NCBI RefSeq assembly: GCF_000003815.2
Contig: NC_049988.1
Coordinates: 9,198,545-9,262,544, forward strand
DNA: 64,000 bases
Direction of reading: 5' to 3'
Source of the DNA: Branchiostoma floridae
Taxonomy: Eukaryota; Chordata; Leptocardii; Amphioxiformes; Branchiostomatidae
Below are positions 6,401-49,211 of the stretch, piece after piece (the first letter of the stretch is position 1; each line of letters opens with the position of its first letter). The notes below the pieces were generated by a model. That model saw only the letters and a program-made list of their open reading frames with translations. It was not told the DNA's origin and did not search any database. A program made the position numbers and the translations under genes.

Positions 6401-9400
6401 TTAGACTATCCTAATCTTTCAGTTTGACAGGGAATGAGTAAAATCTCCGAGATATTTATTTGAAGGAAAGTAGTTTCAAACATTTACTCACCCGGATACG
6501 TGTCACCTGGACACCACCATGGGAAATAAGTGCCTAAACATTTATCTGGAAAAAGTTATCTTCTGTTGTTCATTGGATACATTGAATACTGGTGGAACAT
6601 GAAGGAAGTTTACATTGTTTGACCAAGAGAGTGAGCCTGATGGGATGACTTTTCATTGGACAGTACTCGACCAGTCAGCACTTTATGTACTAAATATTCC
6701 AATCAGATTCAAAACACATGGCTAGATTGGTGCAAGATTTCTGAAAGAACTAACAAGAAATGATAAAGGAACTTTCTTTCATACAAGACTTCCACTTCAA
6801 GACCAGCATTCTTCTAAGGCACTGCTTTAACATTATGGCTCTCATACTGTGATTCCTGGATTGTATAAAAGCTATAATGTTATTGTTGGTTGATGACATC
6901 TTTTGAAAAACCTTTGAAATAGATATTTTGTCTGATTTGTTGAGAATTCTATTTGATGCCTTTATGACTTGTTTGCTTTAACTAAATTTGACAGCCTTAG
7001 AATAATGTTGGTCCTTTCATTAAATTGTTGGTGTGACAGTCAAGTTGTTGAGGGGAGAAGAAGAACTTAAAGAAAATAACATTTCCATGGGGCACTTTGT
7101 CTGGAGATTGTCTGGAATGCAGGCCAGTTCCAGACATAAAATTAATGGTGAAGAGATGGGTGTTATTCTGAAGAAGATGGCATCACTATGGCATCCATGC
7201 AGACCAAGGATCAACAAGTTAAAAGAAACTTGATAAGAAACATGTAGGAATAGGGACATCTTATATATGCTATGTGTATCAAATGTGAAACATTTCATTC
7301 CAATTATAACATTGTTGATTCAAATGGTAGAGAAGTTTAAGATGAAGTTGGACCATGCAAAATATAAGCATCTTACTGTTGTATACTGTAATGATCTATT
7401 GGCAATGTTCTGACATGTGTTACAAGTGTGTCATTCTATTTAAGCCATGAATTCTAGACACGATTGACTTTACTGCTGTGCAATAAACTGTCAAAATGTT
7501 TGTTATACATGAATTTGATAAATACCTTTTGTACTTGTATTGCATTCAGATATGTGCATCAAGGTATGCAAATTGAGGAGTACAATCCATCTGAATATTG
7601 TTTATCATTGAAAGTATACTAGTAGAAAATGAAAAAATGATGTTCAGATTGAGTGGAAAGTTAATAGTGCACTATGTGCACACTGTGGACAACACCTGCC
7701 TCAAATTGTAGGCCAAAGTCTGATGTCACCAAGATGACTTCTTATAAAGTACTGAGTATCTCAGTCTGAATTGTGTCAATTTTAAATTATGCATGATAAA
7801 CTTTTATTATTGTGTATGATATATATTATATATGCGTGACAATCATATGATTGCATTGAAGGTAGAAAGTATTTCCATGAAGAAATTAGTTGCAGTAGTG
7901 TTAGTTGTAGTAGTAGTCTTGATATTGAAAGTGTAACTGTGAAGTTTTATACATAACTACTAATATTAATGATCATTGTAGCATTCCTGGAGTGTAACAA
8001 ACATAGCAAGTTTAACAATTACAATGGCTGATATTTTGTAATAGTTGTAGGATAGAAGCAAATACTTAAAACTGAAAAGACCAGCAGACCAGAAAGATAG
8101 TCTACAATAACACCACATTTCATATCTTTGCAGGGATACCCATGTCATGTCCGGTATATTTCAACAATTGTGCTGGTGAAAAAAGACCACAATTTGTTAC
8201 AGACTGAGTACATTATTATTGTAACTATGGAATGTACAGTTGATATGTGCAGGAACAGGAAATCAGTGAAGCAGGTGAAATTATTGTAACCCTATTTTTT
8301 CAGTCTTTTTAAATTTATATACCATTCTGATGTTGGTATTGCAAAATCTATTTGACACATGTTAGTTTGCGTTGTAAAAAGACTAAATTTGTTTTGTTCA
8401 TAATCATATGGTAGGGCATACAATGGAACTTGGATTCTCATTTTGGTTCGGATAAGGTCATTGCATCCCTGCTTCCTGAACACTTCCCTGTCTGCTACCC
8501 CACAATTTCTTTCAACAGGGCAGTAGTTACCTGAGGAGGAACTTGCCACCAGTTTCCAATTTTCCCCACCAAAGTCACACTGGCCGTAACTACTTACCTG
8601 CAGTTTGTTTCAATTGTAGGGGACAAGCATAATACAGTTGTACTGGCATTCTGTGGATGGAAATGTGATCCAAGCTTGATGTTCTTTGTGGAGCAGTAGC
8701 TGAGATACTAGTAATAGGATTGTATGCTAACAACATACTGACATTTTGTTGTTTCAGGCAGCTTCTAAAGCATTATAACTGGACAGTTATGATGCTGAAA
8801 AGTACAAGGTGTAGAAGTTACTAACTGGCATTTTTTTAAACTCTCTAGTTGCATCAAGTGTCAGGACGTTTCTACCAAACGGATTCTGGAGTAACAAATG
8901 TATTTCTGGTCTGCTGGTCTAAATGTTAATCTCAGCTGTGTCCTGTAGTACTAGTAGTGGTATTTGACATTTTGCTAATGTAGCAAATAGTATGTGGTAT
9001 ACATCTAAAGGTCTTACACTACTGTGCATAATCAGTGGCTTAGATTTAAAGAGGAAGAATTGTGAATAATATGTCAACTTCTATCTCACACTGTTTACAA
9101 TTTGCATATCTAATAATACACTGTACTCGGATGCTGATATGTCCAGTTTTGGTTTTATTGCAAAGCTTTGTAATAAATGAACTTGTGAAATGTCCAGAGC
9201 TGTGTTGGTTTATTTTCTGGTATGATTTTTTACAACATCAAAGCCTCATCAGAAATTTCAGCCAAATTTGGTACTAAAATGGTTGAGGGGTGAGAAGAAT
9301 TTAAATATTATGTGACCTGGATAGTAAGGCTCTTGATCAGTATGTACATTGTAAGGAAGAGCTCCACAAACTTTGAATAACACACCAGACACTTCATTGG

Positions 9401-9949
9401 GCAGAAAGCAACACATCTTGTTTATTCTTTGAAGCAAAGTAAGAGTACGCAAGAAATGTATCACAACAATCTTCATGCACACAGCAGAATGTAATGTAAT
9501 TTCGAAAACCATCACGACATCAGTTGTAATGATAGAATCATGGAATTTACCACACCAGTAGTAATGATGGTAACTTGATACCATTGAACAGTTCACTAAA
9601 GCAATCTATGGCCAAAAATGAACTGAAACAGTAACACTTTGCTAACATATGGTAAACTATAATGGTAAACAATGTTAAATTTCTACCATCGTTGTAATTC
9701 TTGAACATTAGGTGCCGGGGTACTGCTGTTTAGCCACACTTTATGTTATAGACAGTATCGTAAGTAATAGATACCAACCAAAATCCTCTAACACACAAAG
9801 TGTATTTTACGGATGACATTTTTCACACACTGATTATGGTATGTTTGTTTAACACATCAATTCCTAAAATATCACTACAAACACCACCATCCTCATGGGC
9901 ACTGTTGTTAAAGGCTGTCAGCTGTGATGTGGCCGTAATATTGCACAAT
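3491..9949. other. Gene-free stretch between RBM33-like gene and hairpin array
   Basis: No exon-like open frame with homology is visible on either strand; the longest open frames are about 110 codons and have no recognisable family. AATAAA motifs on the plus strand at about 3999, 7482 and 9172 could end alternative 3' UTRs of the RBM33-like gene. The composition is AT-rich. I see no recognisable transposon. Confidence 0.4.
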
Positions 9950-12263
9950 AAGTAAGGCACTCTTGACCTTGACTTATAAAGGTGGGCACATTCCACTGTA
10001 CAAACTATAACAACAGAACCTATAGGTATATAAAATGACATCAACTTCCAGTTGTATTGCACATAAGTAAAGCCTTCTTGGCCTTGACTTACATATCATC
10101 TTGTCTCTAACCAATCCCAATAGAATTTTCAAACATCTAGTAAGTAAAGCTCTATTGTCTCCTGACTAACATAAACTACAAATAGATACATCTATCTCAT
10201 GAAAATCTACAGCGTCCTTCGAACTAACTTTATCTCGCTGAAATGCCAACAAACATTATTATGTTTTCAGTGATACTGGGCACACAGAACAAAGCTGTTA
10301 CTTTAACAACTTAAAGTAAGGCCTTCTAGGCCCTGACTTTGGTCTCCTCATTACAAATGCATGGCTATAGCATATACTGGCTATAGCACATGGTAATGTA
10401 GTATCAAATTTGAATATTATTGCATAGAAAGTAAGGCCTTCTTAGCCCTGACAATCTTGATTACTTAAGAAGTATTTCTCAGATTGCTGTTACTGAAAGA
10501 CATATAAGAAAGCTACAAGAAAAACATTCTTGCCATGACTATTGGAATCCCAACAATATAACAAGAAAGCTTGAAGTAAGGCCTTCTCAGCCCTGACTTT
10601 TTTGGTCTCTTCATGACAAATACATGGCTATAGCATATGCTGGCTATAGCATATGGTATATGTAGTAACAATATTCAGTGTCAGTTCAGTTCAGTGATCC
10701 ATCAAGTGACAATATTATTGCATAGAAAGTAAGGCCTTCTAAGCCCTGACAATCTTGATTACTTAAAGAATATTTATCAGATTACAGTTACTTAAAGACA
10801 TACACATGTGTAAGAAAGCTACAAAAAATTATTGGCCTTGCCTACTGGAATCCCTACAATTCCTATAACAAGAAAGCAACAATCTTACTGCACAAATAAA
10901 CATACATACAGAAAATTGCACAAAAAGTAAAGCTTTCTAAGCTTTGACTTTCTTTGTTATTATACACACAGTCATAATAACTCAATGAACATTTTGAGGC
11001 CTTGAGTAAGCATTAACCAATGGTTGAACACAAAATCACATTGCTTGTTTTTCCAAGGTTGAGGCATTTAGTCACTGGCCAACAGGAATTTAATCAGTGG
11101 CATTAGGTAGGACCTACATGTACGTAATCAGTCTCCAACCAAGGCACATTACTCAGATCAAATGGAGAACGACTGTAGAATGTAGACCTAACAACTAGAA
11201 ATGCTATGTCCTTACCAACAAATTTGTAAGACCACAAATTACAGGAATACATACTTATCTGTTTGATAGAGTTGACACTTTCAAGAAAATTTCTAAAGTA
11301 AATAATCTTACACATTACTAAAGCCAATAACACATGGCTGAGCAGTGTTTGACCAAGGAGCTTTTATCAAGCTCCTTGGTTTCACAGAGGTATTCTCTAT
11401 CTTCTGGGTCTTTTAAAACAACGAGAAAGTTCACAGCTGGAGCACAAATAAGCACAGAAAGTAAGGCCATCTTAGCCCTGACTTCCACAGGAAGTGTAAA
11501 TATTCCAGAGTTTTCTAAACTGCAGAAAGTTTTCGCTAATATCGAACACATCACAAAGACCAGCACACACAGTGTGAGTTAAAATACTGCAATAAGTAAG
11601 GCCTTCTTGGCCCTGACTTACAAAAATATTGCCATCTCTCTTGGATACACATAAATGTTTTCATTCACAATATAATCACCGCATATAAAAGTAAGGCCAT
11701 CTTAGCCCTGACTCCTATAAAAACCCTGTATTGGGCAGCCAGCACTTAACCCAAATATAACTTGTTTCCTTAACAATAAGTAAAGCCTTCTCGGCCTTGA
11801 CTTATAAAAATATAGATGTCTTCATAAAATAACTCTTGGAAATAATTCTGCATAGGAAGTAAGGCCATCTAGGCCCTGACTTACATCGAAGATATTGTGA
11901 GCACAACAATCAGTAATGAACAAGAAATATTTGGTCAGTTTGATATGATAAATGCACCTAAGGTAAAAACAGAACTATCTACACAGACAAAAAGGATTTT
12001 AACAAAAACTCAGCTCAGGACAGAGTAGCAAGTTCAACTGTTTCAGCTCTGATTCCTAACTATCTATTGCTTTTGACCTGGTACAAACTTTCAAATGCAC
12101 TATCTGAGTAATACAACACCAACATCACAGAAGTATAATAAGTAAGGCCCTCTTAGCCCTGACTTATGAAAATATAACATCTTTCATATATGTACAGTAA
12201 AACAACATCTCTTCTTCACATCAGATATACTTTTCAAAAGTAGAGCCTTCTTAGCTCTGACTG
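9950..12263. repeat. Array of 15 dispersed 26-base imperfect hairpins
   Basis: Copies start at about 9950, 10065, 10142, 10314, 10429, 10574, 10727, 10925, 11459, 11594, 11689, 11778, 11857, 12140 and 12238, with a sixteenth at 13433. The consensus is an AAGTAAGGCC arm, a short TTCTT loop and a GGCCCTGACTT arm. The arms pair as AAGT/ACTT and AAGGCC/GGCCCT with one mismatch and one bulge. Spacing is irregular (about 77 to 530 bases) and the sequence between copies is mostly unrelated, so this is neither a simple satellite nor a CRISPR array. Arm changes are compensated (see findings). The array is downstream of the VWA gene stop in that gene's sense direction, so it may lie in a long 3' UTR. 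Confidence 0.85.
10312..10830. repeat. Tandem duplication of a ~260-base block inside the hairpin array
   Basis: Two consecutive blocks share the same order: hairpin, CATGGCTATAGCATA-type text, TTGCATAGAAAG, a second hairpin, then AATCTTGATTACTTAA and GAAAGCTACAA. Block one runs from about 10312 to 10570 and block two from about 10572 to 10830. The hairpins are among the best-conserved parts. Confidence 0.7.
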
Positions 12264-12699
12264 ATAAAAATATACAATTTTCATACCACAGACTGAACAG
12301 AACAAAAGGACTTGACACTTGCCATTTCCCTGATTTTTCCCTAAAATGTAGCAATGTTTACGGACACAGAAAGAAATGAAAGCAAAGTCACAACAGGGAC
12401 AAAAATGTCAGTATGGTCAAAAAGACACCAGTACACAGACACAATAGTTCACACATTTAGAGGTAAGCAGCTATCCCTTAATATTCCTTACAATTTGAAG
12501 GCAGTGAAAACAGACAGTTTAGATATAGCAGCATAAGTAACATCTATTATCATAATACCGGTACGTTTACGACGATTTCTCTAGCCATACTGATTTGACA
12601 AATTGTCAATGCATCATTTTCTCCAGTTACATGTTGCTGTTATAGGTTACCCTTGCCACTTCTTCTGTGTAACTTTTCTGCCACTCTTGTCCTGCTAAA

Positions 12700-13120
12700 A
12701 GCATAATATTGTAATTGTAACACGCCGCGGAATTACACGGCGAACGGGCGCGTGGTTGGGAGGGGGTACAAAATACCGGTAGGAAGAAACACGGCACAAT
12801 TAACTGCCGCTATGTACATTTATACATCCACTGATGTTCCTTCCTTTTCTGTCAGTAAATGCATAAAACATAAACCTGCATGAGCATACAAAATGTTATG
12901 AGAAAACGGACGTATACTGTCAAGAATTTTCATTTAACTTCTGTCCGTCACAACCGCTATGACGTAACACTTCACTGCTAGCGTAGATATAAAAATGGCG
13001 GGAAAATGGCTGCGTACGTTCAATTTTGCCCATTCAGTCGTAGATCCGGGCTATTATGCAACGGTTCTTCACACTTTTACATGAGTTGTAGGTCACCAAC
13101 AGAAATTCAAGATTGTTGTT
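12700..13120. promoter_or_regulatory. CpG-rich promoter-like block between hairpin array and VWA gene
   Basis: CpG density rises sharply (ACGCCGCGG, GGGCGCGTGG near 12721-12755) in otherwise CpG-poor DNA. At 12958-13020 there is a TGACGTAA CRE-like site, a GATATAAAAA TATA-like motif and GGCGGGAAAA, an E2F-like motif. A 30-codon open frame follows on the plus strand. No annotated gene starts here, so an unrecognised, perhaps non-coding, transcript is possible. The evidence is motif-level only. Confidence 0.35.
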
Positions 13121-13432
13121 GAATCATGTTCGTCTTGTGCCGTGAGCATGTGTAATTATTATCTATATAAATTTGGCAATGAATGTGACAGTGTGTTCGT
13201 CCCACGACGAGCTGCCTACCCCGAAATTTAAAAAAAAGTATACTGAAAACTTTTGGCCTTGTTGTCTTCGAATGCATTGTTATCGATGCTTTGTAAATGG
13301 TGTATTGGACACCCAGATGTCTGAAGTGTGCACACCTCAGAAATAACTATTGTTGCATGTGTAGATCTCTTTAAGTTCCAGTATTTTTAATCTACCGGTA
13401 TAAGTCTTACTACCGGTATTATGCCAATGCAT

Positions 13433-13458
13433 GTTAAGGCCTTCTTGGCCCTGACTTA
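13433..13458. repeat. Outlying sixteenth hairpin copy
   Basis: GTTAAGGCC, then TTCTT, then GGCCCTGACTT matches the array consensus closely. It sits about 1.2 kb from the other copies and only about 315 bases past the stop codon of the minus-strand VWA gene. Confidence 0.8.
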
Positions 13459-13772
13459 TCTCTTATACAAGATTCTAGCAGCAGTTACAGAAGTGAAGTA
13501 ACAATTCCCAAGAACATGCTGTCATACTATGTAGTTCGTCATCAAATTCAAGATTCAGTGATACCTACAAGACTGTAGAGTAATACAGCACTTCATGGGG
13601 GAGAGTAGACATACAGGGATCCCATCTCAAATCTGGCAGTGCTTAAAGCAATGAAGGATTTCCATTGGTCATTTTGGCTTTGTGATTTGCATGGAATCAG
13701 GAGTGATACAGCATGTCAAGCTGCTGCATTTTTCTGTGGCATCTTGTTTCATTTTGTTTACAACTGTGCATT

Positions 13773-16700
13773 TTATATAAGGTAAGCACTGATACCGGTA
13801 GTAGATGCGAGATACACAAACAGGCACCAGAACAGGGGCCCACTCTTTGGGTCCAGCTTGAATGATGATGCTGTAGAGGAGTGGCCATGGGCAGCAGTCT
13901 GCTGTTGGGAGGGGGGCGTTGTCGTCGTGTTTCCCTCGGTGGTGCGGAGTGTGAAGCTGGAATCATCAGACAGGCCATACACAGACACATACAAGGTTGT
14001 ACGGGCGTCCTGGCTAGGAACTGACACTGGAGGGAGGAACAAGTCCTGAAAGGAAGAAAGAAGTAAGGGTAAGAGTAATGATCCTCTTTCCAAAACACAT
14101 GGCTTTCTTAACATATTCTATATAGGGATTTTATTTGAGTAAAAATGGACATTTCGAACCTTCAGCCAAAGAACCTACTGGTATATTCTCTAACAAGTGC
14201 TTTTAAAAAAAGCTGGCGTTTCGTCTACGTTTATGAGTGTGAACTGTCTTTTTCTTGAAGTAAAATCTGTTAGAAAAAGTCACTCAAGGGCTGTTGCGTC
14301 TATAAGAAAAATTGTTATTTTGGAAAGGAGTACTGTTTAATAGCTGGTCTTGGCTTACAACTTTATTTTAAATGTACAATAAGTTCATTATAAAATCTAT
14401 CAATATACTCAGGTACTTATGTACACTTGAAAAAGCACCATCAGCACTGTGACAAGATTCTATCTAAATTGACTACCAAATGTCAAACAAATATCCAAAC
14501 CAATTAACAGCTACCTCATCTCTATTATACTGGTTTCCGCATTTACAACATTTCTTCCTTGTTTTCCTGGATAATTTTGATAATATTCATGAAAATTTCC
14601 ATACTTTTGTGTCGAGCGGTGTGACTTTCCACATCCGTGTTGTCTGAAAACTTCTGAATGAAGTCGATACTGAACAATGAAGCATTTGCTACTGTAAGAA
14701 AGGATCGCTGTTTTTGATGGAGTTTCATGCAAACAACATCAAGAGCCTCTGTTTACATCATGAATAGTAGTTTAGTGGCGAGTGTTTTGTGAGAATCATC
14801 TTACCGCGCATAGGAGCCGCTGTACGGTATTTTCCATTACCATGAACAGAAAAATTCGAATGCTGGGTTTGGAATCTATGAAATCCTGTTCATAAGACAA
14901 AGGCCTTGCATACATGAAATGAATACTAAAATAAAATAAAAAATGATACATAAAAATATAATATCAATAAATAAATAGAATATTTATATATTATCTTCAA
15001 TATTTAAAAAGAAAAAATCCACTCTCGGTTTCGAACCAGGGACTTTCGGATCCGAAGGCGTATGACTTTACCGATTGAACTAAGTTGTTACGTGTATTGT
15101 ATATGAGTGTAGTCGATACTGAACATTTGCTACTGTAAGAAAGGATCGCTGTTTTTGATGGAGTTTCATGCAAACAACATCAAGAGCCTCTGTTTACATC
15201 ATGAATACTAGTTTAGTGGCGAGTGTTTTGCGAGAATCATCTTACCGCGCATAGGAGCCGCTGCACGGTATTTCCATTACCATGAACAGAAAAATTCGAA
15301 TGCCGGGTTTGGAATCTATGAAGTCCTGTTCATAAGACAAAGGCCTTGCATATATAAAATGAATACTAGAATAAATAAAAAATGATATATACAAGTATAA
15401 TATCAATAAATAAATAGAATATTTATATATTATCTTCAATATTTAAAAAGAAAAAAATCCACTTTTTCCACTTCAATATTTAAAAAGAAAAAAATCCACT
15501 CTCGGTTTCGAACCAGGGACTTTCGGATCTGAAGGAGTATGACTTTACCGATTGAGCTAAGTTGTCACGTGTCTTACATCTGAATGTACATTATGCTTTA
15601 ACCTCACTACATAGTATTATTTATGTCGATTTTCGGTCGCTTTCTTGATAAAATCATTTTTTTTCTTGTGCAATCTTGTGGAATAGATGTTATATGGCCA
15701 TTTTCCAGGATATTGAAGTCCGAAACCACAATGCAATGGTATTTCCGAACATACAGTTGTAGCAGTTGCATGCGGTCGTGTTGAACGAGGGTCTGCATGC
15801 TCTTTTACGTAAGGCGTAGGCAGCCAATTTTATTTCCCGTAATTCGTAGGGAAAACCATCTTATCTACGTAATTCGTAGCGAGGCGACCAAATTTAGCGT
15901 AATTGCCTTCCTTGATTTAGCGTAATACGTAGGGGGTTCTTTTAAATTCAGCGTAAATCGTTGTCGGAACTCCCCATGCAGACCCTCGTTGAACCAAAAC
16001 CAAGCACCATCGAAGCACCCACTGAAGGTAAAACCCAATACATTGCGTTTCGTCGCCAGAGGGCGACGAAACGCAAAAAATTGAGTATAATAGTTTCTTA
16101 CCCCTGATGTCAGTGTAAAGTTATAGATTGCTTCGTTTGGAGTTGTCACCACAGATGAACCGTACATGGCCACCTGACCTCTGTTCAAGGTCAGTTTGAA
16201 GGTCATCCCCACATCAGGGACAATGAAGGACAAATGTCGGACAGCATCCCTGTCAAGGTCGGCACTAACAGGACTTCCAACTGGAACAGCAGCCACAGCT
16301 GACAAAACAGAAAAACTCTATCAAATTCTAGATCCCTTCAAGTATACCTCCTACAGAAACAGTATCTACACTATGCTTTCTTGAGACCTTTACCAAAATC
16401 AAAAGACATTAAAAATACTTTCATATACATCATCGTACCCCTACACAGAGATTCCTCCATGTCAGTCAGAATCTTCTCAAGGTCACGGAACCATCCGACC
16501 CTGTAAACCTTCCCAGCATGCCCTGCCATGGTCTCCAGCTCCTGCTGATCCACGTTGTTCGTCACGCCGACAGGAAACACCGTGATGCCGGCCTCCTGCG
16601 CTCGCTGCGACCACACCGTCACGTCATGGTAGTCTCCAGACTCCCCATCCGTCAGTAGTATACTCACCTATAAGCAAGAATATAAGATTAATTCATTTTG

Positions 16701-19700
16701 GTAATGCTGTTTTCTCTTTTGTTCTGCAATCCTTCAAGTGGCATGATGTTGATTTTCTAACCGCATAAATCCTCAAAAGTAACAATTGCTTGTTGGGGAT
16801 TGATACAGAAAGTATATTAAAACAATGTAACACTTTTTCTAATATATGACGATACTTTTAACTTCGCAACAAAATTGGAACTCAAAGCTATACATCACGA
16901 GTCATAAAGTTTTTAGAAAATTGCTTTAAATTTGTAATAATGCAGAACAAAGTAAAAAGCTTTAAAATTTATGACAACAAAACAAGTGCACATCACAAAG
17001 AAAATTCCATTGGAAACATGCTATGTTTATAGAACAAGCTTACCTTTGGGACACCCTTGCGGACCTCCCGTGCTCCATTCTCTACAGCAAAGCTGTGTGT
17101 TGTGATGTACTGTAGGGCCTCCCCCGTGTGTGTGAACAAACCTTCATCATACTCTATCTCCTCCACTGCCTGGATAAGGGGGGCTGCACTTAGGTGATCC
17201 TTCAGTTCAAGCTCAAGATTGACTGAAAAACTATAAGTAAATGTATATTCTGGTCAAAAAATTTTGTAGAATATAGTATACTGTAAATGCAGAAACCTTC
17301 ACGGTGGTTTAATGTTCGCGGTTTTCGCGGTGGCCGCTTCACCGCGAAATTAAAACCACCTCAAACATTTTTCAATGGCAGTAAGAGACTACAGTGCATG
17401 GTGATACCGCGAACTTAAAACCACCGCGAAAAGTCCTTTTTCCCGCTACCGTGTAATTAAATCCTCGCAAAGTTAAATGCATTTACAGTATTTCATGATG
17501 TGGTAGTAATTCAAAGTTGATATTCCCTTCTGTGACTTCTATTGACTTGTCTCAGGATCACTAAAAATGACTGATACAAAATGGCAACTTTCTTGTTCAA
17601 CTTGCTACTTTTGAGGTTAAACTGACCTGTACTGTACGACTCCCACCCTAGTTAGGTCTGGTCCAATGGTGAAAGACTGTATGATGGTGTTGATAAAGTC
17701 CTTGGACAGTTGGAAGTTGTTATCTCCGACGCTTGCTGAACCATCCAGCGCAAAAACTAGGTCCAGGCTGGTTGCTTGGCAACCTGCAGCAAAACAAAAG
17801 AAACAGAAACTAGATAAACAAAAGAAACCAGTTTGACAACATATTTCTGAAATCTTATACATAAATGAAATTTGCAACATCTGTGTCAACATTGCAGATT
17901 ATTATCCTGTATATATGGTACAAGGCAAAAAAGCCAATACCCCTGTAAGTGTTTTGAGTCTCAATAAAAATGAGCCATGTTATCTTCCATGGAAACTTAT
18001 CTCCTAGGAGACCTAGGCTGTAGCTTGGACAGATGTGGAAGTTCCCAGCTGCAGGGCAGGACCCATCCCTCTATCCTGGGACAGAAATTTGCTTGTTGGA
18101 ACAGACAGAAATTTGCTTGTTGGACAATGGACAGACATTAAAATTTCACTCCATCCATCCGAAAATCTGAACTTCATGACATGAAACTGTTGAAAATGTA
18201 TTTTAGTATGTTTAACATGACAGATTTAAAGAAGAAAATTTACAACATGGGCTCCTAAATGATGAGCAGGATGTAAAAACATTAAAGCTGGAGACAGCCC
18301 ATAGTCTCTGGCAGGAGTTTTCATTGCAAACAAGTTCCCTCTGAAGTTTGAGAGCAGCCAGCAATGTATATTTTTGAGTACTGGGGCATTTTTGTTACTT
18401 ACTAGTATTTCTTCCTATAGCTATGTGACATCAACCTTTCACATTCCATTGACCTACTCTAGTATAGTAGTATGTCCTTGACAGTAAATAGGTGTGTTAC
18501 TGGCAAACATTGAGGAAAGGACTTCAGAGGATCAAACATTCCTGACAAATATTAGGGAACTAAATATACATGTGCACATTTACACATTCTTGTTGATCTA
18601 CAGTGAGATGGGAAATATGATAAGTTAAAACCTTGAATGAAAATTACCCAATCATTAATTGAGTTGGATTTAACTCATGTATCAACCTGTATTCTTTGCT
18701 ATAATTAAATATAATTATGTAAAATTAATCCCAAGATTTTCCCTGCTATAGGGTCATAAAAGTATTACGTACAAATAACAGAGCATGTCACCATAAATTG
18801 TTAGAAATTATACAATGTGGAAGAACATTGAAAAATTATAAGTGAAGAGAAAATCAAAGTTGAGCTCCAGACAAAATGTGTAGATCAGATCCTTGTACTT
18901 GTAATGTATCTAGCAAATGTGGATGTCTGGTTGGTATAGTCGTAGTGCTCAAAAGGGATGTGATCAGGGACTACAGTTTGGACTCCAGCTGGTAAAAATG
19001 GTACTTACAACTAAGTAACATGTTTTTGAACTGTTTGGCAATACGCCAAACCTCTAGTCTGTAAACAAAAGTTACGTGCTGCAGGACATGTCGGTATGAT
19101 ACCAGTCTTCACAGAGCCACCGCTAATGTTAGAAATAGCTGGAGACCAACCCCTAGACCTTAACATTCAACTTCACCAAGTTTATCTGGCCCTCCTCAGG
19201 CGGAAAATATGGAAATCAAACACCAAGGTTAGAAATAGCTGTCGATCAGCTCAAATTCAAACCATTGATCAACATTGAACTCCACACATGTCTGGCTCTT
19301 GCAAGCCTGGAATAGTGATGAATTCTAAGGCAGAAATAGCTGTCCATCAGACAGTATGCCTCAACATTGGACTAGGTCACAAAAGGGTCAAAAAGGATAG
19401 AAATGCTCAAAATAGCTGTCCATCAGTCATCAGACCTCGACATTACACTGCAATCTAGAATCTAATGATGGAAATCTGTTTTGACAGTCCCTTTCCATGA
19501 ATCTTCTGTTAGACCCTATTCATACCAAGATCCGCAAATCTTGAAAAAATTCACCTACATTTGTAAGCATGTTTTTTTTATCTGCTGAATCCACCTTAGG
19601 AGATTAATTGGTACTAAAACCCATAAGAGCTGGATATGGACTGTTCAAACGAGCATTTGTGCACCAGTACTAGTTCTGTGCCTAACGGAATCCTTGTAGC

Positions 19701-22238
19701 AAGCCTCATTATTACGTTGGGCGGTCCAGGGGTTGTCTGAACAGGAATTTAGTCTACTCATATAAAAATAATCTACTCATAAATTCATCTTCCACTACCT
19801 AAAAAGAAGAAGTCAAACCCAACAAAACTAGCAGCATGTACACTTTAGTAGCACATCAACATGGAATCTAGTTCTTAGCATCAGTGTACTTTTCTTTACC
19901 ATACATGTTGTTTGTATTTGCTATTAGCCCTTGGGCATGAACTTGCAATAAACATTATTATCATTATCATAAAGACCAATGCTGACCTGCTACTTCTTCC
20001 ACTGCAGTGACATAGTCATTTGGACTCTTGTCCAGCGCGCTGTTACAGTAGTTCTTCCAGAAGGCGGCCTGTGCGGGGATACTGGGCGGGATCTCGTGAG
20101 GAACAGTCAGAATTTTCATACCTGCCACAAGGGACGAGTACAGCGGCTTCCTGCAGATAGGATTAATGACAATTATTAGTGTATTTACAAGTTGTCGTGG
20201 AAGCAAAATTCATAATTGCAGAAAAACATACCTCATTTAGTCTTAAGTGGATGCATTGTTTACAGTGTCCAATACACACATAGCTAATAAAATCAGTCAA
20301 ATTCCTACAGTAAATTGATATGGTCCCACTAACTAATCTTTAACATAACAAAAGTTGTGAATGTAACTTTATTTTTAGATGGCAAAAAAAGGACATGTAT
20401 TTTCATGGCTATCTATACCAGTAAACAACATAACTAGAATGTACTTGTCCAGTGGGCCTTAGATTTAGTTTGCTCATGATCCAAAAGGATATTTTAACTT
20501 TCATACATTGTGTATTTTAATATTCAGCTTTCATGTTTTTCTGACTGTTCCCTAGACCACAACATTAACTGAAATGTAAGTCACAAAGATAGAACACATT
20601 AAAATCCACTGCATTTAGTAGTGCCAATTGTTAAGTAACTGTAGGTATTGGACTGTAGAAACTTTCTGTATGAAAGCTTTTTCCTGACTTCTTGATTCAG
20701 GTCACTTGGCATTTGGGTACCTTGGAGGGGCACTCGGAATTTTCCAATCAAAGGAAAAAGCAGTCATGCTAACGCTGTTCTTTAAGAAACCTGAGTAGGC
20801 AAAACCTGACCTGAATATATGCTATCCAGCTACAATTCAGAAGCAAGCCTTGTTACCTCAGGTCTTTCCAGCGTATGGAAACCTTGTGAATACCAAACTG
20901 TGCCCTGATGCTGTCCCATATAGGCAGGAGTTGGGGGTAGGTCCTGGTATCCAAGGTGTCTCGAAAATCACTATAGTCAACCTGCAACAAAAAACACACA
21001 ACTGTTAACAGCAACAACACTGATCCTTGGATAACAGATAAATATTCCCCTACCATTAGGCCACCAAAGCATAAATGAAGACAATTCATTCCAGCAGAAT
21101 TGACCAAGAGTAAATAATCTTGAGAAAATACCAATTACCAGACAGATGACTTGCGAACGTAAGTAGTTTCATCAGGATGGTTGATCAATTGAATTAAACA
21201 CAGTTTTCTTATATACACAGTGTATATCACTACCTTACTTTTCTGCTATACAAATGTTCCAACAGTCTTCTCTGCTGTCGTAAAACTACAAAACTACGTT
21301 AAGGTGACTTGCAAGTTTGAGTCTAATGGAGCATGACATTTTCAAGCATGAGTCCCAGCATTGTTTAGTTTTTAACCACTCCTACTGTTGGTTGTTGGGG
21401 AGCGACCATTGAAGTGAAATCAACATTTAGCACGCCAAGATTTAGGTCTGGTATTTTCAGTTCAATATTAGACAGGTAAACACATCACCAAGTAACTGGT
21501 GAAAGGGTGAAATTTCTATGGTAAATACCGTTAACTGATTTCAGAAGTACTGTGTGTAAAAAGATTTTCATACTGCGAAATAGATAGCACTAACAGCCAA
21601 AGGCACAATCATTCAGTAACTATATGCTAGGCGCATTTCAGTCAAATAAAATAGAGTTACCATCTTACCACAAATCTTATCTTATCTTAATCCCTAGATC
21701 TACCGTACTATTAATAGGCTTAATTTCCCAGAGGAATATAGGAAAACAGTTTGGCTTCTTCATAAAAGTAGTGCGTGTAATTAAAATGATAGTCTTTTGA
21801 ATCAACAGGTATCTACAGCTTTTAGTAAAGAATAATGAACACAAAATCATTGATATCTAGGATAGATAATTATTATTGATTTTGAATGTTGTTGATCAAA
21901 TCAAATTGTGTTCTGACCTGCCAAATCCCCCCATGGTACTCGGGGCTGTACGTCCTGTCCTCCCGCCCGTCCTCGGTGGCTGCCCGGGCCATCCTCCGTA
22001 ACATCGGGAACAGCAGCCGGTGGGACTCAAACACTTTGGAGTCGTGAATCTTCGCCATGCAGGCCATCACCACAGCAGTACCCCGTGCTTCTTCCTGTAG
22101 GGTTAGATCTACCGGGCGTCCCGGGACAACCCCTCGGTGGAGGGTGCCGGTCGGCCCGACCACAGCCGCGGCGACGATCCCCTTGTAACACAGCGCGAAC
22201 AGGGAGACAAGCATGAGGATCCACGGGAAAGGGCACAT
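13773..22238 (-). CDS. Secreted or anchored von Willebrand A protein with lysozyme-like N-terminal segment
   Basis: Eight exons, in reading order: 22238-21918, 20981-20857, 20150-19987, 17783-17627, 17230-17044, 16667-16439, 16298-16102 and 14045-13773. They give 550 residues with phases closing at each junction. Residues 1-23 or so are a signal peptide. Residues 55-200 contain HGGIWQVD (about 102-109) and a Trp-rich region, resembling the GLMQVD-type loop of transglycosylase/goose-lysozyme folds. Residues 210-390 are a VWA domain with MIDAS residues DGSAS (217-221), Thr291 in FTHTGEAL and Asp325 in LLTDGES. Residues 395-510 look like two beta-sandwich segments. A Thr/Ser-rich stretch then leads to a hydrophobic C terminus (about 527-550) fitting a GPI signal or membrane anchor. 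An extracellular adhesion or matrix role follows from the VWA domain. The ligand is unknown, and the N-terminal family name is from memory. Confidence 0.85.
15019..15090 (-). pseudogene. tRNA-like sequence, copy 1
   Basis: On the minus strand it reads as a D-arm-like TTAGTTCAATCGGTAAAG, an anticodon-like CTTCGGATCCGAA and a T-loop GGTTCGAAACC. This order and spacing suggest a tRNA. Stem pairing is imperfect and the acceptor stem is not convincing, so a tRNA-derived repeat or pseudogene is more likely than a working tRNA. Confidence 0.45.
15498..15572 (-). pseudogene. tRNA-like sequence, copy 2
   Basis: This is the duplicate of the tRNA-like segment at 15019-15090, with TTAGCTCAATCGGTAAAG (a better A box) and GGTTCGAAACC. 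It differs in the anticodon-like loop (CTTCAGATCC). It lies at the end of the second tandem copy. Confidence 0.45.
15787..15987. mobile_element. 201-base inverted-repeat element with 7-base target-site duplication
   Basis: The termini are GAGGGTCTGCATG and CATGCAGACCCTC, exact reverse complements. They are flanked by direct repeats GTTGAAC at 15780-15786 and 15988-15994. The interior repeats GTAATTCGTAG-type motifs. It is non-coding and lies in intron 7 of the VWA gene. Related termini occur at 31143-31762 and near 54059. Confidence 0.8.
17279..17490. mobile_element. MITE-like element, family A, in VWA intron 4
   Basis: It begins CTGTAAATGCAGAAAC after TA and ends GCATTTACAG before TA, with internal TTCGCGG/CCGCGAA motifs. 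It lies between VWA-domain exons 17627-17783 and 17044-17230. Confidence 0.75.
19128..19430. repeat. Four degenerate AGAAATAGCTG repeats in VWA intron 3
   Basis: AGAAATAGCTG or AAAATAGCTG recurs at about 19130, 19230, 19332 and 19408. The last three continue GTC-ATCAG and are followed at varying distance by ACATT-type text. Spacing is about 75-100 bases. It looks like an old tandem array. Confidence 0.5.
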
Positions 22239-39100: not shown

Positions 39101-42100
39101 CATGTCGTTGATCGGAAATCTCTAAATACCCATTTTTTTTAAAACAACGAATCTAGGTTACCCCACGGATTAAGGTGAACTAGCGCTAGCGTTATGTGTT
39201 GTGCCTAAGATTGTTCAGCAGTGTTAACGACTAATGTTTTGACATGGCAGGACCATGATGAACGGCCATGGTGCTGATGACAGTGATGACATGATCAAGG
39301 CAGGAGAACCGCTGGACCCACACTGCATCTCTCCCATCCACATGGCGCGCAGGAAGAAACGCAACAAGACACGAGAGAGGACGCGATCGGGGGGAGCCAC
39401 CGCACAGCCGGTAAGATCTGTTTTACTGTCTAATTGTTTTATTCATGGACATACAAATGATAACATTATCCTAATTATCGGTCATCCTCTTGTAAGGTGG
39501 AGAAAGTTAAGTTCCATCTCCAGCAGGACTGTCTCCAGCAATTTTTCCTCACTGTTTGGGAGCCCATATTGTTGATTGTCCCATAAAATGTATCATTTTC
39601 AGCTTTTGAAAACACATTTTCATCAATTCTATGTACTGAAGGTTAGATTTTTTTATGGATGGGGTGAAAGTTTGTCCGTTCAAACAAGCACATTTCTGTC
39701 CCAGGACGGAGGGATGGGTCCTGGTGACAGTCCTGATCTCCAGAACTGTTGTCCTTCTTCGTGTCCCTCTAGATTTGTTCCTGTTTCTATGAGTGTCATT
39801 AGTGTTGTGGTAGTCGTCCAATCTTTCTCTTTTTTGTCAGGAGTCCAGAGCAGGAGATTCCTGGCTGGTTCTCTGCTCCATGCCACGTGACCCGCAAGAC
39901 TCGGCCATGACTGTAGTGATATATGCAATGTTCTATATAATTGTTTGTTGATAACAATGACAACATTGACCATGTATAGGTGACAACATTCCACTAGCAA
40001 TTAAGTGTATGGCAATGGATAAGAGACAACTTCAGATCGCTATGCTATCATAACTGGTGACCAGTTCCTACAATACTATTTATAACATGGAGCTTTGATC
40101 CTGGTTTCAGCCACAGGACATTGAGTATGAAGGCCTGAGATTTCCCCCCAACCTGAACACCCCGTACGCTGTCTCCAGTGTTCTGAACCAGACTCCCGGC
40201 AAACTCAGGACTAAGGACCTGAGGGAAGGTAGGAAGAACCAGCTATAGAAAACATATAGCTGAATTGTCATCAGAAATCATAGTCATCTAGGAACTTAGG
40301 AATAGGTCTGTAGAAATCATAGTCATCTAGGAACTTAGTAACAGGTCTGTAGAAATCATAGTCATCTAGGAACTTAGTAATAGGTCTGTAGAAATCATAG
40401 TCATCTAGGAACTTAGTAATAGGTCTGTAGAAATCACAGTCATCTAGGAACTTAGTAACAGGTCTGTAGAAATCATAGTCATCTAGGAACTTAGTAACAG
40501 GTCTGTAGAAATCATAGTCATCTAGGAACTTAGTAACAGATCTGTAGCAATCATAGTCATCTAGGAACTTAGTAACAGATCTGTAGCAATCATAGTCATC
40601 TAGGAACTTAGTAATAGGTCTGTAGACTCTAAAGGTGGTTCCTAGTTAAACAGCATTTTAACAATAGCCCAATCCCATAGCCATGTCCACCTCCATCAAA
40701 ACATAGAAATGCAAAATGAATTACAAGAAAATGCAACTATTTGATGGGCATGGAGCACTCTCTCCTTGGTTGAACCACTGATCGTCTTGTTGGTCTTTGG
40801 TTGAACTGTTGATTGTGATGGGCATTCAGGATAAGTCTATTGAATGGTGACATGGAAGAAGTTTGTAATTCATCTCTAATTGTTTTCAGACACAAATAAT
40901 TCTGTACGCGGCATATGTTAGAATAAATACTTAACATATTTCTTAAACTGACTATTCTGCTGTGACGCTGAATGGTTTGTTGGAACATATAGTTCATGTT
41001 GAGTTGTGTTCCTATCAGCCATCACCTCTAAGAAGGACCTGGCCCCCAACACCAGACAGATGAAGGAGGCCCTGTTTGAGTACCAGGTACAGCAGGACGT
41101 CATGGCCGAGAGGAAAAACCAGCTCAGATGGTCAGTCATTAGTCAGGAATCTTATTTGTAATATTATGTTTCTTGATGCCCAATAAGTGAATAAAAATAG
41201 GTCTCAGTTCACTAAAACTAGACAAGGATGTTTTCCTTTCCCTCAAACCCTTAAATTATTGACCGTGATATTAAATAGATTTACAGTACTTAAAGCACAA
41301 GAAGAAACTCTGTAATTCTGGCAGTTGTAATTTTCATGTTGAAGGTGTACTTCCCTATTGTAAAGTCACATCAGTGACCAAATGGTCAGAAATGAAAGTT
41401 ACAAGAGTCATTCCTACTGTGTGAGAGCTAGCTGTCCTTACAAATATTTCAGTGTGAGTTAAAACTGATATACCTGTTGTTACTGCAGGCAAGTCCATCC
41501 AGGCAAGGACCAGCTGACAGCAACAGAGAGGATGGAGATTCTGGCCAATAGGGAGGAGGCTGTGAAAGAGTATAGGGTGCGTATGACTTTACTACATACT
41601 GGCTCTAGTAGGTTCAGAATACAATGCATAGAATGCCTAATGTAGTACTACTGGATAAAGATGTTTCTGTGCATTGCATTAGAACTGGGAACAAGCAGCC
41701 CCACCTATCTTACTGAGGGATGACTGCAATGTTCAGAATTCAATTCACAGAATACCTAATGTAGTGCTTAAAGGATCCGATGTTTTTGTGCATTGCATTA
41801 AAATTGGGAATGATATGTAGCTCCACCTGTCTTACTGAGGGATAACTGCAATGTAAGAGATGTCAGTTAGCTGCAGGATTAGTCCTCTCCTTTCATTTAG
41901 TACAAACTGAATAAGTGTAAAACTTTGTTCCTTCACTATTTTCCAGTTTCAGAGAGGCGACCCTTTACCAGACATAGAGTTCAACAGAGCCTGCACGGCA
42001 TGTTCGTTACGGCGAACATGGAGGGTAGCTGGAGAGGTAAGTCTGGAATTCTGTTTTCTCTAACACATGTCTCAGAAAGATATGATAACTGTATGATATG

Positions 42101-48100: not shown

Positions 48101-49211
48101 GCCCTCTACAAACAACCCAGTATCAGCTGCAGGCCCTATCACCAGGTGGGAAGATTTCTATCTTAGTTCCTATCATCTAGTACCGAATTAGTTTTCACGT
48201 CCTGACAAGGAGAAACAAAAGCCAACTTGAATTGGTAACCAAACAGTTTCATTGTAATATTGCCTTAAAAACAACTGTTTTTTTAGTGCTTAAATGCTCA
48301 TCAGGCTAAAGTATCCTTATAATATTACTATTATGATGATAGCTAAAACCTGATGCCACTTCTTGTTTTCTGCATGTGGCTATATTTTTGTTGGCCAGGC
48401 TGTATTTTGTGTGTTTAAGCTGTTATTGTGCCATTTCTGACAGTTTTCCATTTGTTGTTTTCTGTGTCACCATGCCATTCGTGATATTTGTTCTCTGTGT
48501 CATTGTGCATTCCTGACAGTTTTTCTTCTGTATCACTGCGCCATTCCTGATACTAGTGATAGTTTTTCTCAATGTTACTGTGCCATTTCTGACAGTTTTC
48601 TGTCTGTTGTTTTCTGTGTCACTGTGCCATTCCTGATAGTTGTTCTCTGTGTCACTGTGCCATTCCTGACAGTTGTTCTCTGTGTCACTGTGCCATTCCT
48701 GACAGTTGTTCTCTGTGTCACTGTGCCATTCCTGACAGTTGTTCTCTGTGTCACTGTGCCATTCCTGACAGTTGTTCTCTGTGTCACTGTGCCATTCCTG
48801 ACAGTTGTTCTCCATATCACTGTGCCATTCCTGACAGTTTCCCATCTGTCTGTTGTTCTCTGTGTCACTGTGCCATTCCTGATAGTTTTCTGACTGTTGT
48901 TCTCTGTGTCACTGTGCCATTCCTGACAGTTTCCCATCTGTCTGTTGTTCTCTGTGTCACTGTGCCATTCCTGACAGTTTCCCATCTGTCTGTTGTTCTC
49001 TGTGTCACTGTGCCATTCCTGATAGTTGTTCTCTTTGTCACTGTGCCATTCCTGACAGTTTCCCATCTGTCTGTTGTTCCCCAGGGAACAGCGTGAGCAG
49101 GAGTTAGAGCTGTATCTCCAGCAGAGGTACAACAGGCTGGGCTCGCGGGTTCAGACCAAGGTGGACGACATGGAGCGCCTGGTCACCAACAAGGACCTAC
49201 TGCTGAAATAG
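33108..49211 (+). CDS. CFAP221: Cilia- and flagella-associated protein 221 (PCDP1), one exon broken by an assembly gap
   Basis: Exons: 33108-33240, [gap]-35125, 35642-35824, 36320-36420, 36843-36946, 37440-37599, 39251-39410, 40111-40228, 41019-41130, 41489-41576, 41947-42036, 42574-42669, 43263-43475, 43956-44036, 44365-44676, 45169-45327, 45884-45984, 46674-46769, 47731-47838, 48074-48145 and 49085-49211 (TAG). From 35642 onward they give 826 residues; with the N-terminal exons about 900 are expected, against about 840 in human. The N-terminal half is an MSP/ASH-like immunoglobulin fold: VPNHLL, HFAGFELNKTQ, HILPPATSYF, FTPDEWRYYYDCIRIHCK, PIHAYPV, DFEFQISFIQ, VSQFNSKPLLCSFVGT. Then come FPPNLNTPYAVSSVLNQ and a charged coiled region, and the protein ends in an Asp/Lys-rich tail. 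The family is part of the C1d projection of the motile-cilium central pair and binds calmodulin. Confidence 0.93.
33631..33842 (+). mobile_element. tRNA-derived SINE in CFAP221 intron 1
   Basis: A head with A-box TGGCGCAATCGG and B-box GAGTTCGAACCCC is followed by a CTTGGGAAAAGCACTTAAC-type body. It ends in a (GAA)n tail near 33828-33840. This order of head, conserved body and simple tail is typical of deuterostome SINEs. The orientation is the same as the gene. Confidence 0.75.
34280..34493. mobile_element. MITE-like element, family A, CFAP221 intron 1
   Basis: It begins TACTATAAATGCAG and ends TGCATTTACAGTA. The interior has CCGCGAA and TTCGCGG-derived motifs, matching the copy at 17279-17490 in the same orientation. 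Confidence 0.72.
34742..35046. other. Assembly gap (305 N)
   Basis: Every base is N. The missing DNA should hold the splice acceptor and first part of CFAP221 exon 2, since 33108-33240 ends in phase 1 and the visible part of the next exon starts in mid-domain. It is bordered by a (CA)n tract. Confidence 0.95.
35126..35445 (+). repeat. TG-rich microsatellite after CFAP221 exon 2
   Basis: About 320 bases of TGTG interspersed with TCTG, TATG and TTTG follow the exon's donor site (GTGGGT at 35126). A (CA)n stretch at 35047-35071 precedes the exon. Open frames on both strands here are low-complexity artefacts. Confidence 0.9.
37155..37415 (+). mobile_element. SINE-like repeat abutting CFAP221 exon 6
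   Basis: A tRNA-like head (A-box-like TGGCACAAGCGGTAACAC) is followed by a body with GGGGATGTAAAATGGAGGTC and CCCGTGTTC, a pattern seen in many SINE bodies. It ends just before the acceptor at 37438-37439. The B box is poor. Confidence 0.5.
38465..38605. mobile_element. Short inverted-repeat element, AAGCAGATGTTGGGT ends
   Basis: AAGCAGATGTTGGGT at about 38490 is matched by ACCCAACATCTGCTT at about 38573 on the opposite arm, with flanking TGTCATCG/AGTGTCAACGA text also related. A cognate pair lies at 63336-63485. It is non-coding and sits in CFAP221 intron 6. Confidence 0.55.
38981..39194. mobile_element. MITE-like element, family B, CFAP221 intron 6
   Basis: The left end has CACCTTTATCC..GGGTAACCTATATCCGTTG and the right end AACGAATCTAGGTTACCCC followed by GGATTAAGGTGAACTAG, forming long inverted termini. 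It ends about 55 bases before exon 39251-39410. Confidence 0.75.
39600..39745 (+). repeat. Dispersed repeat, copy 1 (CFAP221 intron 7)
   Basis: ACATTTTCATCAATT, TTTCTGTCCCA-GACGGAGGGA and GGGTCCTGG-GACAG occur in the same order and spacing at 44125-44260. A related antisense stretch lies near 18055-18115. The family is not recognised. Confidence 0.6.
40274..40626 (+). repeat. 39-base minisatellite, about nine copies, CFAP221 intron 8
   Basis: The unit contains AATCATAGTCATCTAGGAAC then TTAGTAA-AGGTCTGTAG, repeated head to tail about nine times with few substitutions. It lies just after exon 40111-40228. Confidence 0.92.
42160..42530 (+). repeat. Dispersed repeat with GGGCAAG/CTTGCCC arms, copy 1
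   Basis: GGGCAAGTGAAAG, CGGGCAAGCACATG and CTTGCCCGATAAG occur across about 370 bases of CFAP221 intron 11. A related block at 47040-47356 in intron 18 has GGGCAAGTACATG, CTTGCCCG and GACAAG. A short direct match to 37770-37800 (CTGTTTCCAAAATCATATCC) sits at its left end. Confidence 0.55.
43052..43198. mobile_element. MITE-like element, family A, short form, CFAP221 intron 12
   Basis: It has TA-CTGTAAATGCAG and GCATTTACAG-TA ends but only 147 bases. The middle TTCGCGG block present in 212-base copies is deleted. It lies about 65 bases before exon 43263-43475. Confidence 0.72.
44110..44260 (+). repeat. Dispersed repeat, copy 2 (CFAP221 intron 14)
   Basis: This is the counterpart of 39600-39745: it shares TACATTTTCATCAATTTC and TTTCTGTCCCAAGACGGAGG, then GACGGGTCCTGGAGACAG. 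Confidence 0.6.
46188..46399. mobile_element. MITE-like element, family A, CFAP221 intron 17
   Basis: It starts TGTAAATGCATTTAAG, ends TGCATTTACAGTA, and has CGCGGTAGTTTTAATTTCGC inside. Orientation is as in 2024-2235. Confidence 0.75.
46778..47001. mobile_element. MITE-like element, family B, inserted next to a splice donor
   Basis: CGCTAGTTCACTTTTATCCG and GGGTAACCTATATCCG at the left are mirrored by CGGATATAGGTTACCCCGCG and AAAGGTTCAGTAGCG at the right. It begins only about eight bases after the end of CFAP221 exon 46674-46769, so nearly the whole intron start is element-derived. Confidence 0.8.
47040..47356 (+). repeat. Dispersed repeat with GGGCAAG/CTTGCCC arms, copy 2
   Basis: It contains GGTTGGACAAGTTTTCTGAA at the left and CTTGTCCAACCCTGCA at the right, a partial inverted pair. 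GGGCAAGTACATG and CTTGCCCG lie inside. It is related to 42160-42530. Confidence 0.55.
48600..49083 (+). repeat. 33-base minisatellite ending at the last CFAP221 splice acceptor
   Basis: The unit has CACTGTGCCATTCCTGACAG then TTGTTCTCTGTGT. It repeats from about 48600, with some 48-base variants carrying TTTCCCATCTGTCTG. Degenerate relatives begin near 48425. The last variant unit supplies the CTGTCTGTTGTTCCCCAG tract directly before exon 49085. Long open frames in it on both strands (such as the 185-codon minus frame) exist only because the unit length is a multiple of three. Confidence 0.93.

Follow-up and report, generated by a model that had tools for sequence, protein, structure and literature searches.

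Does a cluster of short palindromes lying beyond the end of a gene in the lancelet Branchiostoma floridae represent hairpins that act in RNA, and if so, in which RNA and for what purpose? In order to answer this question we analyzed a window of 64,000 nucleotides (C10:9198545-9262544 in an assembly of 431 contigs and 513,431,437 bases), where the original prediction had reported sixteen dispersed hairpins with coupled changes in their arms between positions 9950 and 13458. Fifteen of them were recovered as strong matches at the places where they had been reported, and the sixteenth was recognized as a decayed copy. The set consists of 28-nt imperfect palindromes within 9949-13458, and all 15 strong copies are oriented alike (Table 1; copies are named below by their first position). 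A search with a 26-mer allowing up to three mismatches found 11 places, against a mean of 0.00 in 100 dinucleotide shuffles, and the best matches in ten sequences from a first-order Markov model, scored on one strand, reached 17-19 of 28 positions, against 20-28 for the copies. A covariance model assigned 36-51 bits to the strong copies, although these scores are not independent because the same 15 copies built the model; the decayed copy scored 17.1 bits and was excluded from all counts of pairing and structure. Start-to-start distances of the strong copies are 79-534 bases when the insertion in the 13431 copy is left out.

Table 1. Positions of the hairpin copies, the host gene and associated features within the window.
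Feature	Position	Strand	Score or remark
Predicted poly(A) signal, first minus-strand AATAAA past the VWA stop	9421-9426	-	
Hairpin copy, last in the RNA	9949-9976	-	42.2 bits; one inner mismatch C.U
Hairpin copy	10064-10091	-	45.4 bits
Decayed hairpin copy	10139-10171	-	17.1 bits, E 0.049
Tandem duplication, two hairpins per unit	10304-10877		Units 10304-10570 and 10559-10877
Hairpin copy, tandem duplication unit A	10313-10340	-	43.4 bits
Hairpin copy, unit A	10428-10455	-	44.0 bits; poor fold with 60-nt context
Hairpin copy, tandem duplication unit B	10573-10600	-	43.7 bits
Hairpin copy, unit B	10726-10753	-	42.9 bits; predicted to misfold in context
Hairpin copy	10924-10951	-	43.5 bits; 11:23 is A-U (both sides changed), 14:20 is U-A
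Hairpin copy	11458-11485	-	46.7 bits
Hairpin copy, top score	11593-11620	-	50.9 bits
Hairpin copy	11688-11715	-	44.0 bits
Hairpin copy	11777-11804	-	45.4 bits
Hairpin copy	11856-11883	-	44.4 bits
Hairpin copy	12139-12166	-	47.6 bits
Hairpin copy	12237-12264	-	40.8 bits; 11:23 is A-U (both sides changed), 10:24 is G-C
Terminal-inverted-repeat element within a hairpin	12540-13434		895 bp; TA on both sides
Hairpin copy interrupted by the insertion	13431-13458	-	36.2 bits
Predicted stop codon of the VWA gene; predicted 3' UTR begins	13773-13775	-	
Host gene, VWA-domain protein	13776-22238	-	ATG exon at 22238; PF00092

The host gene is encoded on the minus strand. From the ATG to the stop we traced eight exon stretches by hand, which when joined yield a protein with a match to the VWA domain (PF00092, E 2.4e-43) and a start that looks signal-like by eye. 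When part of this protein was compared with the genome, pieces of 93-98% identity were found at its own locus and matches of no more than 59% identity away from it (135 matches scored). There is no AATAAA on the minus strand between the stop and position 9421, which places the whole array, located 3' of the VWA stop as had been claimed, within the predicted 3' UTR. Such a 3' UTR would measure about 4.35 kb with the 895-bp insertion counted in, and the array would span from about 315 to 3800 nt past the stop; the very long 3' UTR suggested earlier is therefore probable. GC skew, which is positive over 0-9 kb and negative over 10-13 kb, was counted in favor of the minus-strand 3' UTR reading. 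A plus-strand gene carrying an RRM domain (PF00076, E 4.3e-05, exons joined by hand) has a reading frame that closes near 2.7 kb and likely continues into a long 3' UTR reaching a plus-strand AATAAA at 9172. The two genes are convergent, and their ends seem to lie about 250 bases apart (plus-strand AATAAA at 9172, minus-strand AATAAA at 9421).

In order to determine how the copies are distributed, we compared them with their flanks and searched the genome for further members. The hairpins form a single cluster and are more alike than their flanks: mean identity is 80% within the 28 nt and 23-36% outside (91 pairs from 14 copies; ten-base bins to 80 nt on each side, compared without gaps, so that indels exaggerate the drop). 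The statement that the copies are separated by mostly unrelated DNA holds on average but not everywhere. Four copies belong to a tandem duplication and for that reason are not independent, and the 11593-11688 and 12139-12237 pairs show a weak alignment across both hairpins, which may reflect an older duplication of a pair. The tandem duplicates differ at 3 of 52 sites within hairpins and at 16 of 210 within flanks (Fisher p 0.77), and slower change of the hairpins was not found in this comparison; 12 of the 13 gaps fall outside the 26-nt cores, and the thirteenth, as aligned, lies in a T run at a core edge.

The first pattern searched in the genome gave five matches, all five in the array. A strict pattern composed of the invariant letters and three near-invariant ones gave 12 matches, again all in the array (missing the 10428, 10726 and 13431 copies), with none for the control. 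A looser pattern allowing one mismatch gave 21 matches, 15 in the array and 6 elsewhere, with one for the control. The six outside matches are all isolated, although one of them, on C9, has no mismatch; when the covariance model was run on 16,893 bases around them, four scored 12-16 bits, two gave nothing up to E 10, and no neighboring hairpin was found up to that threshold. A 481-bp stretch matched only one place in the genome. Match counts may be lower bounds, and by these pattern searches we found no second hairpin cluster in the 513-Mb assembly. The copy-number check proposed with the original prediction therefore came out in its favor, with no dispersed family. Of the two origins it had left possible, gene conversion or a transposon, the latter (a MITE, for example) is disfavored by the genome searches, and local duplication is evident for four copies.

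On the minus strand the copies share the consensus UAAGU-C-AGGGCY-NAGAN-RGCCUU-ACUUA, which folds into an outer helix of up to 5 bp, a bulged C on the 5' side, an inner helix of six pairs (9-14:20-25) and a 5-nt loop, NAGAN. Columns G6, T7, C8, A9, G12, A16, G17, A18, G21, C22, T25 and A26 are fixed in all 15 strong copies, so that each carries both C8, bulged by prediction, and the AGA of the loop. The inner helix shows a strand polarity. Read on the minus strand, 89 of its 90 cells are paired, with 20 G.U and no A.C; read on the plus strand, 69 of 90 are paired, with no G.U and 20 A.C. The same is seen (71/72 on minus, 56/72 on plus) when 3 of the 15 rows, namely the cut copy and one hairpin from each duplicated pair, are dropped to leave 12 copies. 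The outer helix has no such polarity (63/75 and 62/75 cells). The RNAalifold consensus energy is -7.9 kcal/mol on the minus strand and -2.66 kcal/mol on the plus strand, and the energy of single copies is lower on the minus strand in 13 of 15, equal in one and higher in one, the cut copy. Mean inner-helix probability on the minus strand is 0.80 with either 60-nt or 150-nt flanks, and on the plus strand it is 0.50 and 0.43, respectively; 12 of 15 copies have a minus-strand value of at least 0.75 with both. The 10428, 10573 and 10726 copies fold poorly in context, and at 10726 the plus strand outperforms the minus strand.

We assign the hairpin to the minus strand, which is the sense strand of the VWA gene. 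The small stem-loops first described were upheld, but the strand had to be changed: the minus strand pairs better, with a bulged C and with G.U where the plus strand has A.C. This strand assignment, the G.U polarity, the invariant bulged C and AGA, and the insertion in the 13431 copy are features that the original prediction had not noted. Plus-strand RNA produced by read-through of the RRM gene is disfavored by the pairing.

The coupled arm changes on which the prediction was built are real and are seen at three pairs. Pair 11:23 is G-C in 11 copies, A-U in two and G-U in two; pair 10:24 is G-U in ten, A-U in four and G-C in one; pair 14:20 is U-G in seven, C-G in six, U-A in one and unpaired in one. 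Among all 11 pairs on the minus strand, three are constant, four changed on one side, two changed on both sides, and two depart by unpaired cells only. In 500 column shuffles of the minus-strand reading, the covariation score was reached once and the paired share twice, but two of the five measures taken, the numbers of both-sided changes (reached in 333) and of pair types (reached in 134), were ordinary. The plus-strand reading has four pairs changed on both sides, compared with two on minus, because one-sided G.U steps on the minus strand become mismatches on the plus strand; its covariation score was reached in 6 of 500 shuffles. Permutation of the inner helix reached the observed value in 459/20000 cases (629/20000 with the 12 copies). 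Out of 2000 tree-aware simulations, which relied on a poor tree of copies built from 32 columns, the pairing and the covariation score were reached in 91 and 184, respectively, for the inner helix, and in 156 and 72 for the full set of 11 pairs. Covariation is therefore borderline once shared ancestry is allowed for. The claim that pairing keeps the copies alike stands insofar as they are stem-loops alike in their pairing, but the support from covariation is weaker than stated, and we let polarity, orientation and the likeness of the copies, rather than covariation alone, carry the case for RNA.

Borderline covariation also fits a reading in which the copies are a functionless small repeat or a side effect of duplication and gene conversion at the locus, their likeness being due to recent copying. 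The tandem duplication of four copies, the partly shared flanks and the finding that hairpin substitutions are not significantly rarer than those in the flanks all agree with this possibility. Nevertheless, it appears unlikely given the sharp drop of (ungapped) identity at the hairpin edges, the maintenance of inner-helix pairing on one strand among the variants, and the lack of a second cluster in 513 Mb, where the looser pattern found only the 6 isolated matches. It is quite unlikely that the copies are imperfect palindromes bound as double-stranded DNA, for example as an enhancer or insulator near the convergent gene ends. A DNA palindrome would have no reason to show the polarity of the inner helix (20 G.U and no A.C on the minus strand), to have all 15 strong copies in a single orientation, or to keep its bulge constantly on one side and its AGA invariant, even though near-palindromes clustered between two convergent genes and an outer helix without polarity are in line with DNA sites.

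Slightly less probable again is the use of the hairpins by an independent non-coding or small RNA, such as an RNA scaffold, and not by the 3' UTR. ATTAAA is present on the minus strand at 13386 and 11089, and shorter transcripts could end there, before many of the copies. These sites and the insertion could part the array from the VWA gene, and arrays of repeats are also found in long non-coding RNAs. However, the minus strand has no AATAAA from the VWA stop to 9421, no Rfam family matched at the gathering score anywhere in the window, and hairpins of 28 nt are too short for microRNA precursors, which counts against a separate small RNA. We consider it likely that the copies constitute an RNA hairpin array in the predicted 3' UTR of the VWA gene.

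The insertion itself provides a further view of the array. The ends of the element (12540-12563 and 13411-13434) are 24-bp inverted repeats alike at 20 of 24 positions. Bases 13431-13434 are element sequence, and the lost outer arm of the cut hairpin is found at 12534-12539; when the flanks are rejoined, the empty site matches the 11593 copy at 28 of 28 positions. Of the 40 places scored out of 1185 candidates, 39 are other copies 99% identical to this one, and at all ten loci examined (this locus included) the element is flanked by TA at each end and measures 895-896 bases. The intact empty site together with the near-identical copies suggests an apparently recent insertion into a formerly good hairpin, and the 39 copies indicate that the element was probably active recently. 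The element supplies a CpG-rich stretch (observed/expected 1.04, compared with 0.20 in 9400-12539). The minus-strand ATTAAA at 13386 sits within it and might cause early transcript ends.

What could such an array do? Iron-responsive elements (IREs) are known RNA hairpins that occur in several copies in the 3' UTR of the transferrin receptor. A published account describes their recognition through a bulged C and a loop triplet, which are kept apart by the upper helix (PMC8466369). Our hairpins resemble IREs in that all 15 strong copies have a C, bulged by prediction, separating two helices. They differ in that the inner helix has 6 bp whereas the IRE upper helix has 5 bp, the loop has AGA in all 15 where the IRE has AGU, and the C-G cross-loop pair (positions 15 and 19) is present in none of the 15; cross-loop A-U or U-A is possible there in 5 of 15. 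Additionally, the 8 Rfam matches that 9900-13800 gave up to E 10 did not include an IRE, and we know of no tie between the host VWA gene and iron. On the grounds of loop, helix length, cross-loop pair and lack of an Rfam match, we reject IRE membership. Another comparison is offered by repeat A of XIST, described as 8.5 copies with a conserved palindromic core and variable spacers within an RNA, whose monomers act additively and have undergone compensatory changes during evolution (PMC3734131). The copies studied here likewise are hairpins with a conserved palindromic core and variable spacers, but XIST is a non-coding RNA with T-rich spacers and another core, and the two are likened by description, not by sequence.

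A bulge and loop that stay fixed while the letters of the stem vary resemble hairpins that are read by proteins. By analogy with the IRE and XIST repeat A, we propose a locus-private multivalent array that docks a putative RNA-binding protein and controls the VWA mRNA, a reading that we consider somewhat likely. We infer three of its parts: transcription of the array as one 3' UTR, a docking protein, and a regulatory output. The array would have grown through local duplication, evident for four copies and presumed for the rest, with the hairpins retained as the spacers diverged. Most likely, the invariant bulge and loop would serve as a two-point contact for the putative protein, and copy number would give multivalent, graded control of the stability, translation or localization of the VWA mRNA, stability or translation being our first guess.

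Arrays of the MS2 coat-protein hairpin are artificial RNA tags of repeated hairpins, each with a bulged A and a fixed loop, that recruit a protein multivalently. Our array likewise repeats a hairpin in which a single base bulges out and the loop is constant, and would likewise recruit a protein multivalently; it differs in its bulged C and in not being artificial; the comparison is one of form, not of sequence. Tentatively, and with more doubt than we attach to docking itself, the array might be a natural multi-copy counterpart of the MS2 tag: a lineage-specific hairpin family of one gene with a dedicated protein, where copy number tunes or assembles (e.g., into granules) one mRNA. To our knowledge, regulatory hairpins are spread over many genes or are present in one or a few copies per mRNA, while in this case a single gene carries some sixteen copies of the same hairpin and we found no second cluster in the assembly. 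Such an array was not described in the titles and abstract openings of the open-access literature, among the matches listed. If true, our proposal would represent a clean case of a multivalent RNA code arising via local duplication and would yield a prediction that can be tested in related lancelets; the two fixed features of the hairpin could be used as bait for finding its protein.

Several other features were observed in the window. GUGCAAU, which we take to be a seed match of the miR-92/25 family, lies directly downstream, in the RNA, of three hairpins (9940-9946, 10056-10062 and 10915-10921 in plus-strand coordinates), followed by A in two cases; there are three occurrences in the predicted 3' UTR and nine on the minus strand of the whole window, which does not establish enrichment. 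At 11352-11380 the same predicted 3' UTR contains a hairpin unrelated to the array, with a perfect 12-bp stem and a loop of 5 nt. At 14630-15600 a segment of a few hundred bases is directly duplicated and includes a stretch that by eye resembles a tRNA B-box; ARAGORN (bacterial code) found no tRNA genes in the window, this region included. Finally, tandem repeats are present at 55710-56326 (a 56-nt unit in 11 copies, 98%), at 40273-40626 (a 39-nt unit in 9 copies, 96%) and at 48427-49083, the last being a family with 33- and 48-nt periods.
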